Part shown: piece after piece, positions 1 through 7,964 of the stretch
How the letters are laid out: every line of letters starts with the position of its first letter
Position numbering within the stretch: position 1 is the stretch's first letter
From: Gaertneriomyces semiglobifer
Taxonomy: Eukaryota; Chytridiomycota; Chytridiomycetes; Spizellomycetales; Spizellomycetaceae
DNA length: 64,000 bases
Assembly (NCBI GenBank): GCA_025558075.1
Contig: JAHLKF010000003.1
Location: 186,001 to 250,000, forward strand
Reading direction: 5' to 3'
Made by a program: the position numbers and the translations under genes
Notes under the pieces: model-generated
What the model saw: the letters and a program-made list of their open reading frames with translations, nothing else
Databases searched by the model: none
What the model was told of the DNA's origin: nothing

Positions 1-1018
1 CGAACAAACGTTAGCTGGAGGCCCGCCGATGTAAGGCCGCCTGAGCCCGACGTGCTTACCTTCAACGCCGAGATCGTCCGCAATGGTCTGAAGTAGTTGC
101 GGCGCGTGCTTAGATTCATTGGGTCCTGCCGCTTCGACGTTTCCGTTCAATCTGTCAAGTAGTATGTTCAGCAAGCAAGACGGTGCATTGATACCACAGT
201 GGGGTGCCTTACTCCTTGGAAGCGGCGGAAGTAATGATAGGAGTAAGCTGATCCTCCTTGTTGAACTTGAAGCCATCATTGACGCCGCGATCCAAATGGA
301 TGGCAAGAGTAGGAATTCGCAGAATGGGTCTGGTCAGAGGCGGAATCAGCGTATGCGCTCAGTATCATAGAGCGATGGTTAACGTACCGGTTGATGCGCG
401 TGAGTCGGTGTTCGTATGATCCATCGGCGTTCTTGACCAGTACTCGTCCGGCAATCCTGTAAGCAAGCCGATCAACGTAAGTGGGTGAAGAGTCCTTACT
501 AACATCATGCGTAACTTACCCAAGATCACGATCGAACCATGTATGCCTAATGACATTGAATACTGAATTAGAAACTAGCATACCAGATGCAGCCAATCAG
601 TCACTAGTAATCACCATAAACCGCCACCGTATGTCTCCACTCCAACCTGCGTGTAACCGCCCTGCTCTTTCTTTGAGTGAGGCTTAACCTACAAGATCAA
701 AGTCGATTAGCCAAAACACACCCTCAAGGTGAGAGTTTGACAGGAAATGTGACATGCCTTCAAGCAGGGAGAATCGGTGTGAGCACCCACAACGGCGAAA
801 CCATTTCCGCTCTTGTACTTGCCGCCAACCGCAAACGCAGTTATAGCACTCTTGTTCCTGGTGAAAAAGTATTTCCCCGCTGGGCGCAGAAATCCGGCCC
901 AGTTGTCACGCTCAGAAATTTCCTCGAAACCGGCAGCAAGCAACCGGCTACGGACTGAATCTACAGCATGGAATGGAGACGGGGATGCGTTCACAAAGTC
1001 TAGAAAATCTGCTGCCGA
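1..1018 (-). CDS. APE4: Aspartyl aminopeptidase (M18), 3' truncated at the window edge
   Basis: Cytosolic or vacuolar metallo-aminopeptidase of family M18 that removes N-terminal Asp/Glu. Six exons were read on the minus strand: 1018-758, 688-615, 546-520, 456-388, 329-213 and 151-60. A further exon from about 14 may run off the window. Family landmarks appear in order: [20 protein letters not shown] (zinc-ligand His), [35 protein letters not shown] and NGNVEAAGP. The reading phase is kept across every junction. The first intron (757-689) starts with GC instead of GT: GCATGT after AAG is the only donor that joins CLK to the expected VKP. The exon with the start codon was not resolved; the family N-terminus is only a few residues longer than the first exon here. 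The C-terminal part lies outside the window. Confidence 0.93.
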
Positions 1019-2593
1019 CTGATGTTGCGTTGATAGAGGCGTAGATGAGTATTTCAGGCGAGTGGCATGGGTGGTGGTTGCACGGCCAACAGTGCGAATG
1101 GCGATAACAGGAGGAAGACAACAGACGAAGGGGGACAGGCGCAGAAATGGAGACTGTTAACATTCTGTATCATATCAAGGACCGGAATCTTCCAAATTAA
1201 AGTGCTGTAACTTACCATTGCAAAAAAACGTGCCTTCTCTTACGGTTTTAGTTTGCAAGATCTGGAGTGTGTCCAGTTGACAACGCGGTGTACAAAAATG
1301 TTGGACGCTCGACCAATAATGCCTTTAACAGAAATTTTACTATCGGGAACAATAACCTGTAGTTTATCCAAGGAGATCTACGTTTGATTGGATTGCTGTT
1401 GGTTGTGAGCTCCTGTCATATTCGTGGTAGAATTCCGGGGCAGGAGTGTTGACATCTTTCTTAAGGGCCACTCCAAGCGGCAGTCCAGATATGTACTATC
1501 TAGGTTTGAGCAGACGGGATGAATAAGTATTACAAGCGCAAGTGTATTTGCCGGAGTAGCTTGGAGACGGAAGCCTGACAGCACCATGTGCGCACTCCTG
1601 GTTTGATGGACTTAAAATATGATTTCCACTCGGCTAGGCAGTAGAGCCTGTTCGGATTCGTCACTTTGAGGCAGATTATGCAAGGAAGAAGCGAACGATG
1701 ATACGACTTGTTGTCGCAACAACCACCGCTCATAATTGGCGATAGAACCAGAATCTTAAATGATATGTTACAGGGCCAAGAGGATCGATTCACCAACCGG
1801 TGCCGTCGGAGCGCTCGCTTCCATTTGTTCGGACGATAGTTGGTAACCGTTTGCGGAATGCTCCTTGCTTGCTCCGCAGGTCCTACAGACCTGCTCCATA
1901 GCTGATTGTAGTGCATGCCATCATGTTCAGCATTTTTGACCGCATTACTACTGATAACTTCTCGCTCCCTCCACTTCTTGGTCAATTCGCGGAATAGTTG
2001 GTCTCGGCTCAGATCACAATTAAGAACGCACACATGAGACCTTGATAAATCGCCGTCTCCTAGCCGTCTGGTCTGGCTTAACACAATGGCTCCTGTGAAA
2101 TCCCGCGTATATTCGTCTGCACTCAGCGCGCTCGGGAAAGCGAAATCAAGTACATATCGCACAGCAACATTCCTACTCTTCCTTCAGTACGCCAGCACGC
2201 ACTTTTACATGGTCGAGCCTCTCGATCGTTGCCCAAAAAGATGTCTGTCTTCGGTTATCAGCATTCCGTCGACGAGGAAATCCGCGCGCGCAGTCGCTTA
2301 CCTAATCTAACTCCGCTTAATGCCTTGACTCAAGTCAAGTGAGTCAGGACATTTGAAGCCAGCTCAACATTTTCTCTTCTGTCAAGAAGCAGCATAGGAA
2401 CGGAGAGGTTGTGAGCGTCTACAAGCAGAAAGGCGGAAGGCGGACAGTGAACTACAGCATTCCCGCAGTCTTGGAGGCTTGACGGACGGACGAGGCCGGT
2501 TGGAATTGAAATCTAAGAGCGTCACGCGGTTTTGGCAGAGATCATTTTGGGGTCGTGTTGCCAGATGCGAGCAGGTTCCGTGTAGAAAGAAAC
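1019..2593. other. Intergenic or unresolved, divergent between APE4 and the LAGLIDADG gene
   Basis: About 1.6 kb with no gene I can recognise. It must hold the first exon and promoter of the aminopeptidase on the minus strand and the promoter of the plus-strand gene at 2594. A minus-strand open frame at 2162-1530 is 210 codons long, but it begins with GTG and shows no motif. It could be an exon of an unknown gene or a chance frame. Confidence 0.5.
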
Positions 2594-5102
2594 ATGATCA
2601 ACCGTGGGTTTCGGTTCCTCTTACCGGTCAGCGCACGATGTCGGAGGCCGCAGCGCTGCCTAGATTTTCGGTTCTTGAGCACTTCAAGCTCAGATGGGAG
2701 TTCCTCGCGCGAATGGAAAGCGACGGACCCACGACGGGAACAAGTACGCTTGCACTTGCAGAAGGAGCTTGACAAGTTAAAGGAAATGTTGGGACCAAAT
2801 CTGCCAGATAAGGAGACCATGCAGCGGCTATTGGAGGAGTATAAGCGAAAGCAAATGGCTGAGAAGAGGGCACGAAGGCCACCGAAATCAAAAGAGAAGA
2901 TAAAGTACGCAGCCCAATACGTTGTGCGAGAACGATTGATATTTTTCTGACGCGTTTCTTTGGCATGTCAGGTACGACTGGGAGCCTAAGAAGTCGCCAG
3001 CGGCAATTCGACGAGATCTGATGTACGCGCGCATCAAAGAGGCTAAGCGCGCTGGGCGCGCTGGGCGCGCGAGTACCAAATCCTCCCATTGGCTCGGTAG
3101 AGGCAGCAAGAAGTCAAAGCTCCAACGAGAGGCGTTAAAAACCGGTTCTGATCCATCGTCCCAGGAGAGCTTGTCGATTGACTCCACCAGGAGCTCCCAC
3201 AATTTCACGAAAGAACACAGCCAGCTGCATGACCAGAACTCGCGGTCTGCCTACACTCGTGAGGCAACCACCGTGAGCGCTTGGGCGCAAAAGTCCAAAT
3301 CAACTAAACGGGATGTAACATCGGATTACCCAGCGCGTGGCTGGAAGGAGAACTCAAGGAGTTTCCCGAGAAATGAAACAGCATCTCGTGGCTGGAAAGC
3401 CAAATCAAGCTTCGACAAGTCAACAATAGGGAGATCTGGAACCGATTATCCCTCGGGCTCTAGGACTTACGTGACCAGGGCTCACGCAACAACGCGCATG
3501 CAGAAAGGTGTCCCCGAAGTTCCAGCTTTCGCCCCTACTGTTCCATCAAAGACTCGCAATGCTAGTTCAAATAAGTCTGTGTTTCCGCCTCGAGTTCTCC
3601 AGGAGACTGACGACCAGATAACATTCGAAACTGCTTATACCCATCGGCAGTTAGGTCGGCGAAAAAAGAAAGAGAAGAAACCGCCAAAACCTCCGCGAAC
3701 TACACCGAAGCTTCTCCCCTGGCAACGAAGACTCTCGTGCCCTATACACGAACTGGACCCACTTACCGTTGAGAAGCCGTTCTATTTGTGCTTCTCAAAG
3801 ATGACGGAGAATTTTGCGGATCCTAATCGCTTCGTACAGTGGATTGGTGGGCTGAATGACGGCTGTGGCAAGATATATTTTGACCGTGCTGGTGACTGGC
3901 CGAGGCACGTTTGGGAAATCATTGTTCACGAGCGGGATGTTTCGATTGCGTACTATTTAAAGATGATGATGCGGTATAGCACTGTACGAAAGCTTCCGAA
4001 CAATTTGCTGGCGTGGAGAATGTACGACCCCAAAGGTCTACTACGTATGGCACGCATGGTGCAAGGGCAGTGTCGCTCACCCGAGAGACAGGCGGAGCTG
4101 AAGCAGTTATGCGCAGAACTCGGTCATCCCGAGCTCTACGTTCCGCCAGTGCCGCTTGTTCAAGCGCAGCGCCATAGCATGTGGTTATCTGGCTTTTTTG
4201 AAGCCCGTGGACGGTTCCGCGTTGACGAAAAGACTGCCACTGCTTTTGCTGAGATCGTGTGGCATGAACCCAAGTTCTTGCATGAGATCAAAAAAAATTG
4301 GGGTTATGGGAAGGTTGTGAGAGCTGAGGCACCACCGAATGCCGGAACTGTCCAGTTTTACCAAACGGGGGAATGCCGACGATGGACGGAGGTGGATGCC
4401 AATGGAAATGCGATTGCAACTGACGCGGATTTGCTTCGGGACCCTCAGTCTTCGGTGCATCTTGCCGAGAGAGCTGCAGAAAGCCTCAGTGCTGAACCAT
4501 ACGTGTACAAATTGGTCTTTGACGAACCGTCCAGTATTGGCAAGCTACAAAAATATTTATCCGGGCACGGATTCAAGGGTTCGCTTGCGATTGATTTGGT
4601 GCGTTGGAACCGTACAGTGTTGTTCTACGATCGCGGTTATCATATTGGAAAGGGTACCCGGAAAGGTCCTTTCAAGCTTGCCCGGCTCATTGGGAACCTC
4701 AATACTCGTCTACCTGCTACTCCCGCGAGTGTGTCCCTAAGTTGGGATGCTGAGGGGGGCGAGGCCACGCGACCCGACGAGCCACAGGATGAAACCGGCT
4801 GGATCCAGCAGGTGGATGAGGAGCGCTGGTTGCGGACTACTGGGAGGGTCAAACCTCTCCTCGGAGAGCCCGGGTACGTTCCCCCAGACCCAAATGAACC
4901 GGTTCCTGCTCAGTTGACCAAGAAGCAAAAGCGTGCATTGAAAAGGCAACGTCAGCGAGAAGAAAAGAAGCTACGGGAAATGTCCAGGGAGAGGAAAGTT
5001 CTATTGCAATATCTCAATAGGTTGCGACAGGAAAGTTCTCCAACCATGCGAACCGAAGAAGGTTTGGGTGTTCAGTCATCTTCAGATAGCACAAATACAT
5101 AG
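2594..5102 (+). CDS. Nucleus-encoded mitochondrial double-LAGLIDADG protein with degenerate catalytic sites
   Basis: Exons 2594-2904 and 2972-5102; 813 aa. The N-terminus is Arg-rich and lacks acidic residues for about 20 aa (MINRGFRFLLPVSARCRR), like a mitochondrial presequence. Residues about 60-100 are a charged helix. Residues 130-340 are low-complexity (Ser/Lys/Arg, with repeated RGWK units). From about 355 comes a double LAGLIDADG homing-endonuclease-like region: motif 1 WIGGLNDGCGKIYF (core 395-403, bases 3843-3869) and motif 2 WLSGFFEARGRF (core 509-517, bases 4185-4211). In active enzymes the eighth residue of each motif is Asp or Glu; here it is Cys and Arg. The fold seems kept and the nuclease site lost, as in LAGLIDADG maturases that help splice group I introns. 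The C-terminus is a basic coiled segment. A role in mitochondrial RNA splicing is my inference. Confidence 0.8.
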
Positions 5103-5160: not shown

Positions 5161-7207
5161 TTAAGCTGCATTATCTCCGACTTTCATCTCACCGATAGTA
5201 TCGCACACTTTGAGAGTTCTCAAGTATGACTCCCATTCTTCATCCTCCTCTTCTTTGGAGTACATTTTGAAAGATAGAACTTTAAAGATTCGAACGAGGC
5301 GTCCATTGATGAAGCGGAAGCGACCCCATTCTCCTGGGTGTTTGGGCAACCGCCGCGTACGAAGATTTGTTGGGATAAAGACAGATACGAGAACACCCAA
5401 CGAGGTGAAAGCCAAGATCCAGTGAAAGTTAAGATCGTACACGTGCAAAAGGTCGGGCTTTAAGCGGACCACCTCAGATTTGTAAACGGCATTGAATATC
5501 AAGCCTCCACCGACGCCGGCAATTGCCCAAGCGGTAAGAATCACTCCGTGGGTGGCGCCAACATTCTTGCTTCCGAATTGATCGGCAAGGAATGCGGGAA
5601 TAAGACCGAAACCTCCTCCATCTAGAATGCAAGGCAAACATAGTTAGGGAGAGAAGCTCATGCACGCGCGGCCACGTGAGTGCACTCACAAAAGAAGGCA
5701 ATTACGAAGGCCGCAAGAAGTGTTACTGCATACGTCTGGTCGCCAATGGCTTTGGGAAGAATCGCCAAGAAGATGGTCTGCATCACGAGAGAAATCACGA
5801 AGAAGATTTTCCGCTGCTTGAAATAGTCAGATAGACCAGGAAGGACCAGACGTCCTAGTAGATTGCAACCGCCCAGAATACTATTAATGTTCGCTGCGGT
5901 GTCACTGTCCTTGCGTAGCTGGTTCGAGACGATGGATTGGATTTTCGAAATGATCAACAATCCCGTAATTTCGTTACACTAATGAAGGATCGAGTTAGGA
6001 TATGGGTTAAATGAAGCCTGCCCAGAAATACTTACGAAAAACATAATGTACATTAGAATGTACTCTGGTGATGTCAACGATTTTGAGAGTGACATCGCAA
6101 ATGCACTGGCTGCAGGAAGTGGAGTAGCGACATTTACGACGGTGCGCTCTTTATTGGTCTCCTTATCGTCGGCATTGACGGTTTTGGAAGACTCGTTGTC
6201 CGATAGTTGAGAGGTCGGAGTGGTACTTTCAAACTTTTCCGCGCCTTTGATGGTATCGATATTGACACCCTTGACTTGGTATCCGGGCGGTGGCATTCGC
6301 AAGACAAACGACGCCAGGACCATCAGCACAAAGTAACAGGAGCCCAAGATGATAAATGTCGCTGGTACGCCCAAGTTCTTTATTCCCGTGATCGCATAGG
6401 TTGAGCCAATTAGCGCCTTCTGGGTGTAGGGGGAGAAGATAGACCCAGCGCCAAAGGCACAGACAGCAGCACCCGCGGCAATGCCTCGAAGATCAGGACA
6501 CCATTTCTGTAAAGGGCTGACCGGCGCAATGTACGAGATTCCCAAACCAGCGCCGCCAACAAAGCCGTATCCAAAAAAGACGAGAGGCATGGCTTTCACG
6601 TGAACACCAAGCGCCGTGAGTAAGTTACCAGCGTAGAACAAGGTGGCACCGAGCAAAGCGCCTTTGAAAGGTCCGTTCCTGCGCGCATGAGCCGGTGATT
6701 AGAAGAACGGCCGGTAGTTGACTCGCCGGTGGTCAGGACACCTACCTCTCCAACCATGGACCAAGGAAGGCCGCCGTCACGCCGAAACAAGCTGACAGTA
6801 AGTAAGTCAGCAACGTCCTTCCCAGCTCAACAAGCATAAATTTGCAGGATACACACCTACTGCGACAAAGAATACATTACTAGAGATCCCACGGTCTACA
6901 GCGACCGATTTGCCGTCCACTTTCACGACATTCGGACCATATATTTGGCGTTCAATGGGAAGGTTGAACCCGGAGAAGGCGTACAGACTGCCGCAACAGA
7001 TCTATCATCAAGAAAGTCAGCGTGGTCCGAGAGCCCGAAATCAAAGGCAAAATATACCTGAATCAGGACAGCAGCCGGCATAAGGAAGTACCGGTTGAAC
7101 CTCAAGACATTCGGAATGAGCCATTCTTCTCGGTCCAGCTGGCTTTGACTTCGTACATAGGTAGTGCTAGAATAATGCCATTTTACGAGGTTGATGAGGG
7201 AAGACAT
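5161..7207 (-). CDS. MFS transporter, oxalate:formate antiporter / monocarboxylate-like
   Basis: Six exons on the minus strand: 7207-7058, 7001-6857, 6791-6746, 6678-6036, 5978-5690 and 5621-5161; 577 aa, phase kept throughout. A multi-pass membrane protein of the major facilitator superfamily. OFA-family signatures are present: a Gly-rich helix followed by SPLQKWCPDLRGIAAG (the loop 4/5 motif with the conserved KW..D.RG), and FFYGGGFGLIPAFLAD in the second half. A long hydrophilic loop (ESTTPTSQLSDNESSK region) separates the two six-helix halves. The family moves small organic anions such as oxalate, formate or monocarboxylates; the substrate cannot be told from sequence. The start is the first ATG in the open exon; a further upstream exon is not excluded. 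Confidence 0.85.
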
Positions 7208-7964
7208 GACTGAAATGTGGCCAGTTGGGAAGGGCCTGTAGATGGCGAATAGATATTCCACCAGAACCACAAGCAACTAGCGGCAATGTCTACACCATCA
7301 ACCTTGTCGATGGCGGGGATCCGCAGCGGCGAGCCGGACCCAGTTTATATAGATCGAACAGGTAGATCAAGCCTCATGGATTCTTCCATTTCTCGTTTTC
7401 GTTTGGCACACCATGACGCCCGTGCAGCACCGCTTGCACACCTGGTGCGGCTCTTCCGTGATGTACGACAGCGTGTAGCAGCCATGCCTGTCCGAAGATC
7501 CACAGATGGAATTGGAAGGAGGGAACATACGCTCCGAACCGCAGGCGGGGGACATGGACAGGAGGCGGGCCCTCCGGTGCGGATTCGTTAAGTTAAACGA
7601 CGCCCTTTTGGTTCGACGTGACGCGTGGGGTGTTCAAAAATGCCTTCCGCAAAACGAAACCGGAACTTTGTGAGGCGCCGGCAGATGTGCAGCGAAGGCT
7701 GCTGAGGCCTGTTTTGGCAGTAATTGCACGTCAACGGCACTCCAGCACTGGCAGGCACCCACCAGGTGGGTTGCCCCTGCAATTTGCAGTGCAGTCCGAA
7801 GCAGGTGTGCTCTCTGTGCACCCATACGAGTAATTGAATCATCGCTATCAGACAAGTGTTGCCGTCTTTGGTCAGCTTCTTGTATTTAGAGACCCATCAC
7901 TACACTCTATCTATCTCGTTTAAATGTAATTCATCACTGGACAACGGATAGGCGCCGAGTTAAA
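7208..7964. other. Intergenic or unresolved; Cys-rich minus-strand frames
   Basis: No gene recognised. Two minus-strand open frames carry zinc-ribbon-like Cys pairs: 7842-7588 (CNYCQNRPQQPSLHICRR) and 7555-7367 (SPACGSERMF, then VCKRCCTG). They could be exons of one small zinc-binding protein, but I could not join them with convincing splice sites. Confidence 0.35.

Follow-up and report, generated by a model that had tools for sequence, protein, structure and literature searches.

A nuclear LAGLIDADG protein of Gaertneriomyces semiglobifer that has lost its catalytic acids, a candidate splicing protein for mitochondrial introns

The bI3 LAGLIDADG maturase of yeast is encoded in mitochondria, within its own intron, and I-AniI, catalytically active and intron-encoded, is presented in its structure title (1p8k) as bifunctional, both a homing endonuclease and a splicing factor for group I introns. 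Both differ from the protein described here, which lacks the catalytic acids and is encoded by a nuclear gene at positions 2594-5102 (+) of a 64,000-nucleotide stretch of the chytrid Gaertneriomyces semiglobifer (positions 186,001 to 250,000 of contig JAHLKF010000003.1, assembly GCA_025558075.1), hereafter the window. In plants, OTP51 is a nuclear plastid splicing factor whose LAGLIDADG motifs are devoid of endonuclease residues (PMC2758277, PMC8393795). By published description, the Arabidopsis protein resembles the window protein in its nuclear gene, its two motifs, the missing endonuclease residues and a direction towards an organelle, which for the window protein is putative. OTP51, however, has pentatricopeptide repeats (PPR) and acts on a group II intron of plastids, whereas group I introns are proposed as targets of the window protein. 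Yeast Mrs1 is comparable in that it descends from a nucleic-acid-cleaving protein, no longer cleaves and now serves in the splicing of group I introns, although its ancestor was a RuvC-type resolvase and not a LAGLIDADG protein (PMC2813881).

In some chytrids, reduction of the mitochondrial group I introns has gone so far that most escape the standard models. Those reported for Spizellomyces punctatus are derived, short and A+U-rich, do not splice in vitro, and are recognised by standard models in only 3 of 15 cases (PMC8971849). The accessible text of the literature on these introns names no protein as splicing them, and a LAGLIDADG protein that is nuclear, conserved and devoid of catalytic acids, in a lineage with reduced introns, is a concrete candidate for such a protein. 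In the open-access literature searched, plant OTP51 and an insertion in Ustilago were found and no fungal nuclear LAGLIDADG splicing factor. The window protein joins OTP51 and the bI3 maturase as a dead LAGLIDADG protein, here nuclear, fungal, free of PPR and equipped with a C-terminal block of its own.

Nuclear coding, fold and loss of the catalytic acids

Joining positions 2594-2904 to 2972-5102 gives an open frame of 813 amino acids, which bears out the spliced gene proposed in the preliminary description of this DNA, and the nuclear location proposed with it agrees with a contig of 1.35 Mb in a 20.9 Mb assembly, a third-position G+C content (GC3) of 0.55 and the absence of internal stops. 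Homing endonuclease genes lie inside a self-splicing intron or intein, or home; the gene described here, by contrast, stands alone in nuclear DNA and is itself interrupted by a GT..AG intron of 67 nt.

A degenerate two-motif LAGLIDADG domain spans residues 361-685 (3741..4715, +) according to profile searches, structure models and alignment. On these grounds, the protein is a member of the LAGLIDADG superfamily, with two predicted alpha-beta-beta-alpha-beta-beta-alpha halves, each opening with a LAGLIDADG helix. In a profile search of 177,635 PDB sequences, 5gkk matched significantly (E 1.2e-5), with a score that comes mainly from the second half-domain, and a profile match to P0003, an intact LAGLIDADG_1 protein, aligned both motifs (2.3e-6). 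The remaining rows of the PDB profile searches comprised four unrelated chains at E 0.89-1.2 in a separate search and, beside 4yit in the search that gave 5gkk, three antibody chains at E 0.65-0.69. The Pfam scan of the window protein returned no family at E up to 10, LAGLIDADG_1, LAGLIDADG_2 and PPR included, so the combination of PPR and LAGLIDADG that marks an OTP51-type protein is not found; its two orthologues (see below) likewise fell into no family when all three proteins were scanned with Pfam and NCBIfam. For each of two predicted models, all 50 Foldseek matches listed were LAGLIDADG proteins, and superposition reached Z scores of up to 13.9 with models of low confidence (predicted local distance difference test, pLDDT, 42 and 51; P0003 was included in the alignment for the second). 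Maturases stood near the top of the superpositions listed for the second model (I-AniI at 21% identity, the bI3 maturase at 18%), and most I-OnuI types among them lay at about 13-16%.

The first motif, IGGLNDGCG, occupies residues 395-403 (3843..3869, +) and the second, LSGFFEARG, residues 509-517 (4185..4211, +). In gap-free alignments, Cys402 (3864-3866) and Arg516 (4206-4208) fall on the catalytic eighth position, where the partner is Asp in both motifs of P0003, Asp and Lys in the bI3 maturase (2ab5), and Glu in the PDB profile alignments (motif 1 of 5gkk, motif 2 of 4yit). The motif stretches alone score weakly, at 3-7 bits in the alignments to 2ab5 and in the PDB profile search. The second motif of the bI3 maturase, FFEAK, shows a change similar to the FFEAR of the window protein, whereas its first motif retains the acid that the window protein has lost.

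Two likely orthologues, SPPG_08533 of Spizellomyces punctatus (P0001) and SpCBS45565_g07480 of Spizellomyces sp. 'palustris' (P0002), have the non-acidic catalytic positions and the C-terminal block in common with the window protein. Identity of the window protein is 46% with the former across 427 residues and 44% with the latter across 488; between the two Spizellomyces proteins it is 84.6%. They are shorter (610 and 615 residues against 813), with an unalignable N-terminal part, and are annotated as uncharacterized or hypothetical and nothing more; the locus name SPPG_08533 was absent from the open-access papers searched. At the eighth position, the window, S. punctatus and S. 'palustris' proteins carry Cys, Ala and Ala in motif 1 and Arg in all three in motif 2. 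An acid at this position in both motifs, as in an active LAGLIDADG homing endonuclease, is thus present in none of the three proteins. All three also keep the same glycines in the two motif helices, so that helix packing is preserved and the acidic site is not. The preliminary description had given both motifs at exactly these residues, with Cys and Arg in place of Asp or Glu, and the alignments agree with it. Two findings that it named as refuting did not turn up: the structure and profile matches show a LAGLIDADG fold, and both known relatives are equally non-acidic at these positions.

Conservation among the three sequences is uneven. In the first half-domain, 62 of 109 positions are invariant. 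The second, aligned as two pieces, has 23 of 55 and 30 of 73, and a variable insert within it (residues 561-612; 4341..4496, +) retains 6 of 52. A C-terminal block at residues 690-750 (4728..4910, +) is as conserved as the fold, with 37 of 61 positions invariant; no counterpart appeared in the match to the bI3 maturase, and of all parts of the protein this block is the hardest to explain.

A proposed splicing role in mitochondria and its alternatives

The explanation preferred here, to which we give about an even chance, is that a nuclear-encoded, dead LAGLIDADG protein is imported into mitochondria and assists the splicing of degenerate group I introns in trans. Its ancestor would most likely have been an organellar intron-encoded endonuclease or maturase, whose gene turned nuclear in the common ancestor of G. 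semiglobifer and Spizellomyces. The nuclear protein now carries an N-terminus that is basic and presequence-like, followed by a long linker, and the conserved C-terminal block; its catalytic acids have been replaced (by Cys or Ala, and by Arg) and the fold and motif-helix glycines retained. With the acids gone and the fold kept, DNA cutting by the usual acidic metal site should be lost, and a nucleic-acid-binding surface can persist. Once imported, the protein may bind degenerate group I introns in trans and keep the ribozyme folded for splicing, in a way similar to the action of the bI3 maturase on the intron that encodes it.

Indirect support by analogy comes from S. punctatus, which bears both an orthologue and derived introns that fail to splice in vitro. 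A survey found four introns with homing endonuclease genes in its single Spizellomycetales strain (PMC7487136); if that strain is of the same species, most of the 15 S. punctatus introns may be without a protein of their own. Import into mitochondria is plausible from the sequence, as the N-termini of all three proteins are basic and acid-poor; residues 1-40 of the window protein (2594..2713, +) hold 8 Arg, 0 Lys, 2 Asp and 1 Glu.

Several observations weigh against this explanation. The helical moments of the N-termini are no more than moderately unusual, being reached by 192 of 2000 shuffles for the window protein (50/2000 for the S. punctatus and 23/2000 for the S. 'palustris' protein), and the same charge rule is passed by 6 of 33 long open reading frames in the window, the gene's own alternative start included. 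The presequence signal of the Arg-rich N-terminus named in the preliminary description is modest. The bI3 maturase contacts a peripheral helix (PMC2813881), whereas derived S. punctatus introns occasionally have no peripheral domains (PMC8971849), so the mode of binding would have to differ. Similar derived introns are reported for Rhizophydium brooksianum (PMC8971849), and no orthologue was found outside Spizellomyces in a database whose coverage of the R. brooksianum nuclear genome is not established. The C-terminal block has no known relative, with no Pfam family and one PDB match (E 3.5) taken as chance. The assembly of G. semiglobifer itself gave no match to cox1, Proton_antipo_M (ND2/4/5), LAGLIDADG_1, LAGLIDADG_2 or group I introns (E up to 1 for the introns), and thus seems to hold no mitochondrial genome. 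Import, RNA binding and splicing are, moreover, steps that we infer.

Next in order, though somewhat unlikely, comes a mitochondrial RNA-binding protein with another task, such as a lineage-specific mitoribosomal or ribosome-assembly protein, a factor for mRNA stability or translation, or a helper in tRNA editing. The protein is very basic (isoelectric point about 10), its conserved C-terminal block and basic tail are not common to the maturases found by search, and PMC7272585 lists a reference whose title mentions mitochondrial tRNA editing for S. punctatus. In the precedents found, however, as far as their accessible text goes, organellar LAGLIDADG proteins without endonuclease activity and with a known role are splicing factors. 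The open-access literature on the mitoribosome with LAGLIDADG or homing endonuclease offered no such ribosomal protein, nor did the PDB sequence matches listed. The Neurospora mitoribosomal protein mL108, considered as a LAGLIDADG-like case, was discarded on account of its thioredoxin-like fold (PMC7560712). A protein that regulates or organises mitochondrial or nuclear DNA, having retained the DNA-binding surface of LAGLIDADG proteins without their cutting, like the bacterial transcription factor WhiA, is improbable: WhiA has an additional DNA-binding domain, the Pfam scan described above found no known DNA-binding domain in the window protein, and the basic N-termini lean, weakly, towards mitochondria.

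Activity as a nuclease that cuts via different residues would agree with the intact domain outline and with conserved acidic residues at other sites, such as those in the motif stretches LND and FFEA; we consider it very unlikely, and a retained nuclease was rejected on the loss of the catalytic acids. Most improbable of all is a mitochondrial homing endonuclease gene that was inserted into nuclear DNA, has no function and is decaying. A comparable insertion with active-site mutations, of the GIY-YIG type, is reported in Ustilago maydis (PMC7593156), yet here the frame is open and an orthologue is 46% identical over 427 residues, conserved blocks (62/109 and 37/61) stand beside a freely diverging insert (6/52), and the gene is present as a single copy in its own genome in a search at E up to 1. 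A recent insertion or pseudogene was accordingly rejected on conservation.

If splicing by the window protein and its orthologues proves true, a homing endonuclease will have been taken over as a splicing factor by the fungal nucleus, and the shrinkage of ribozymes under protein support becomes directly testable in S. punctatus. A bolder form of the splicing explanation, with about one chance in three, is that a single nuclear, general trans-acting LAGLIDADG maturase, a domesticated dead homing endonuclease, keeps a whole set of shrunken group I introns of chytrid mitochondria splicing. The introns could thereby have shed the proteins they once encoded as well as peripheral RNA, and fungi would have a separately evolved counterpart to OTP51 of plants.

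Gene model and neighbouring genes

Exon 1 (2594..2904, +) starts with ATG and encodes residues 1-104, codon 104 being split and the frame restored by the splice junction. The predicted intron (2905..2971, +) has a CTGAC branch-like site at 2947, 21 nt ahead of its end, and is followed by exon 2 (2972..5102, +), an open frame of 720 codons ending at TAG. The weak points of the gene model are the first exon, based on the open frame and plausible splice signals alone, and Met121 (nt 3021), an alternative start. Alignment to the orthologues gives no support to the exon 1 part, as none is significant before residue 318. This also applies to most of the basic linker of low conservation at residues 105-344 (2973..3692, +), in which a short in-frame repeat at 3049-3070 (+) encodes AGRAGRA. 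The basic C-terminal tail covers residues 751-813 (4911..5099, +), with 6 of 20 positions invariant in residues 751-770.

The tRNA and Rfam scans of the 64-kb window returned no match. A fragment of an M18 aminopeptidase gene, probably one exon, lies upstream at 707-1156 (-) and matches Peptidase_M18 above the Pfam cut-off (E 4.4e-29). On the other side, an MFS-like transporter of several exons is found at 5161-7276 (-), one piece of which (5979-6698) matches MFS_1 at E 9.9e-5, under the curated cut-off. Together, these neighbours suggest an ordinary nuclear setting.
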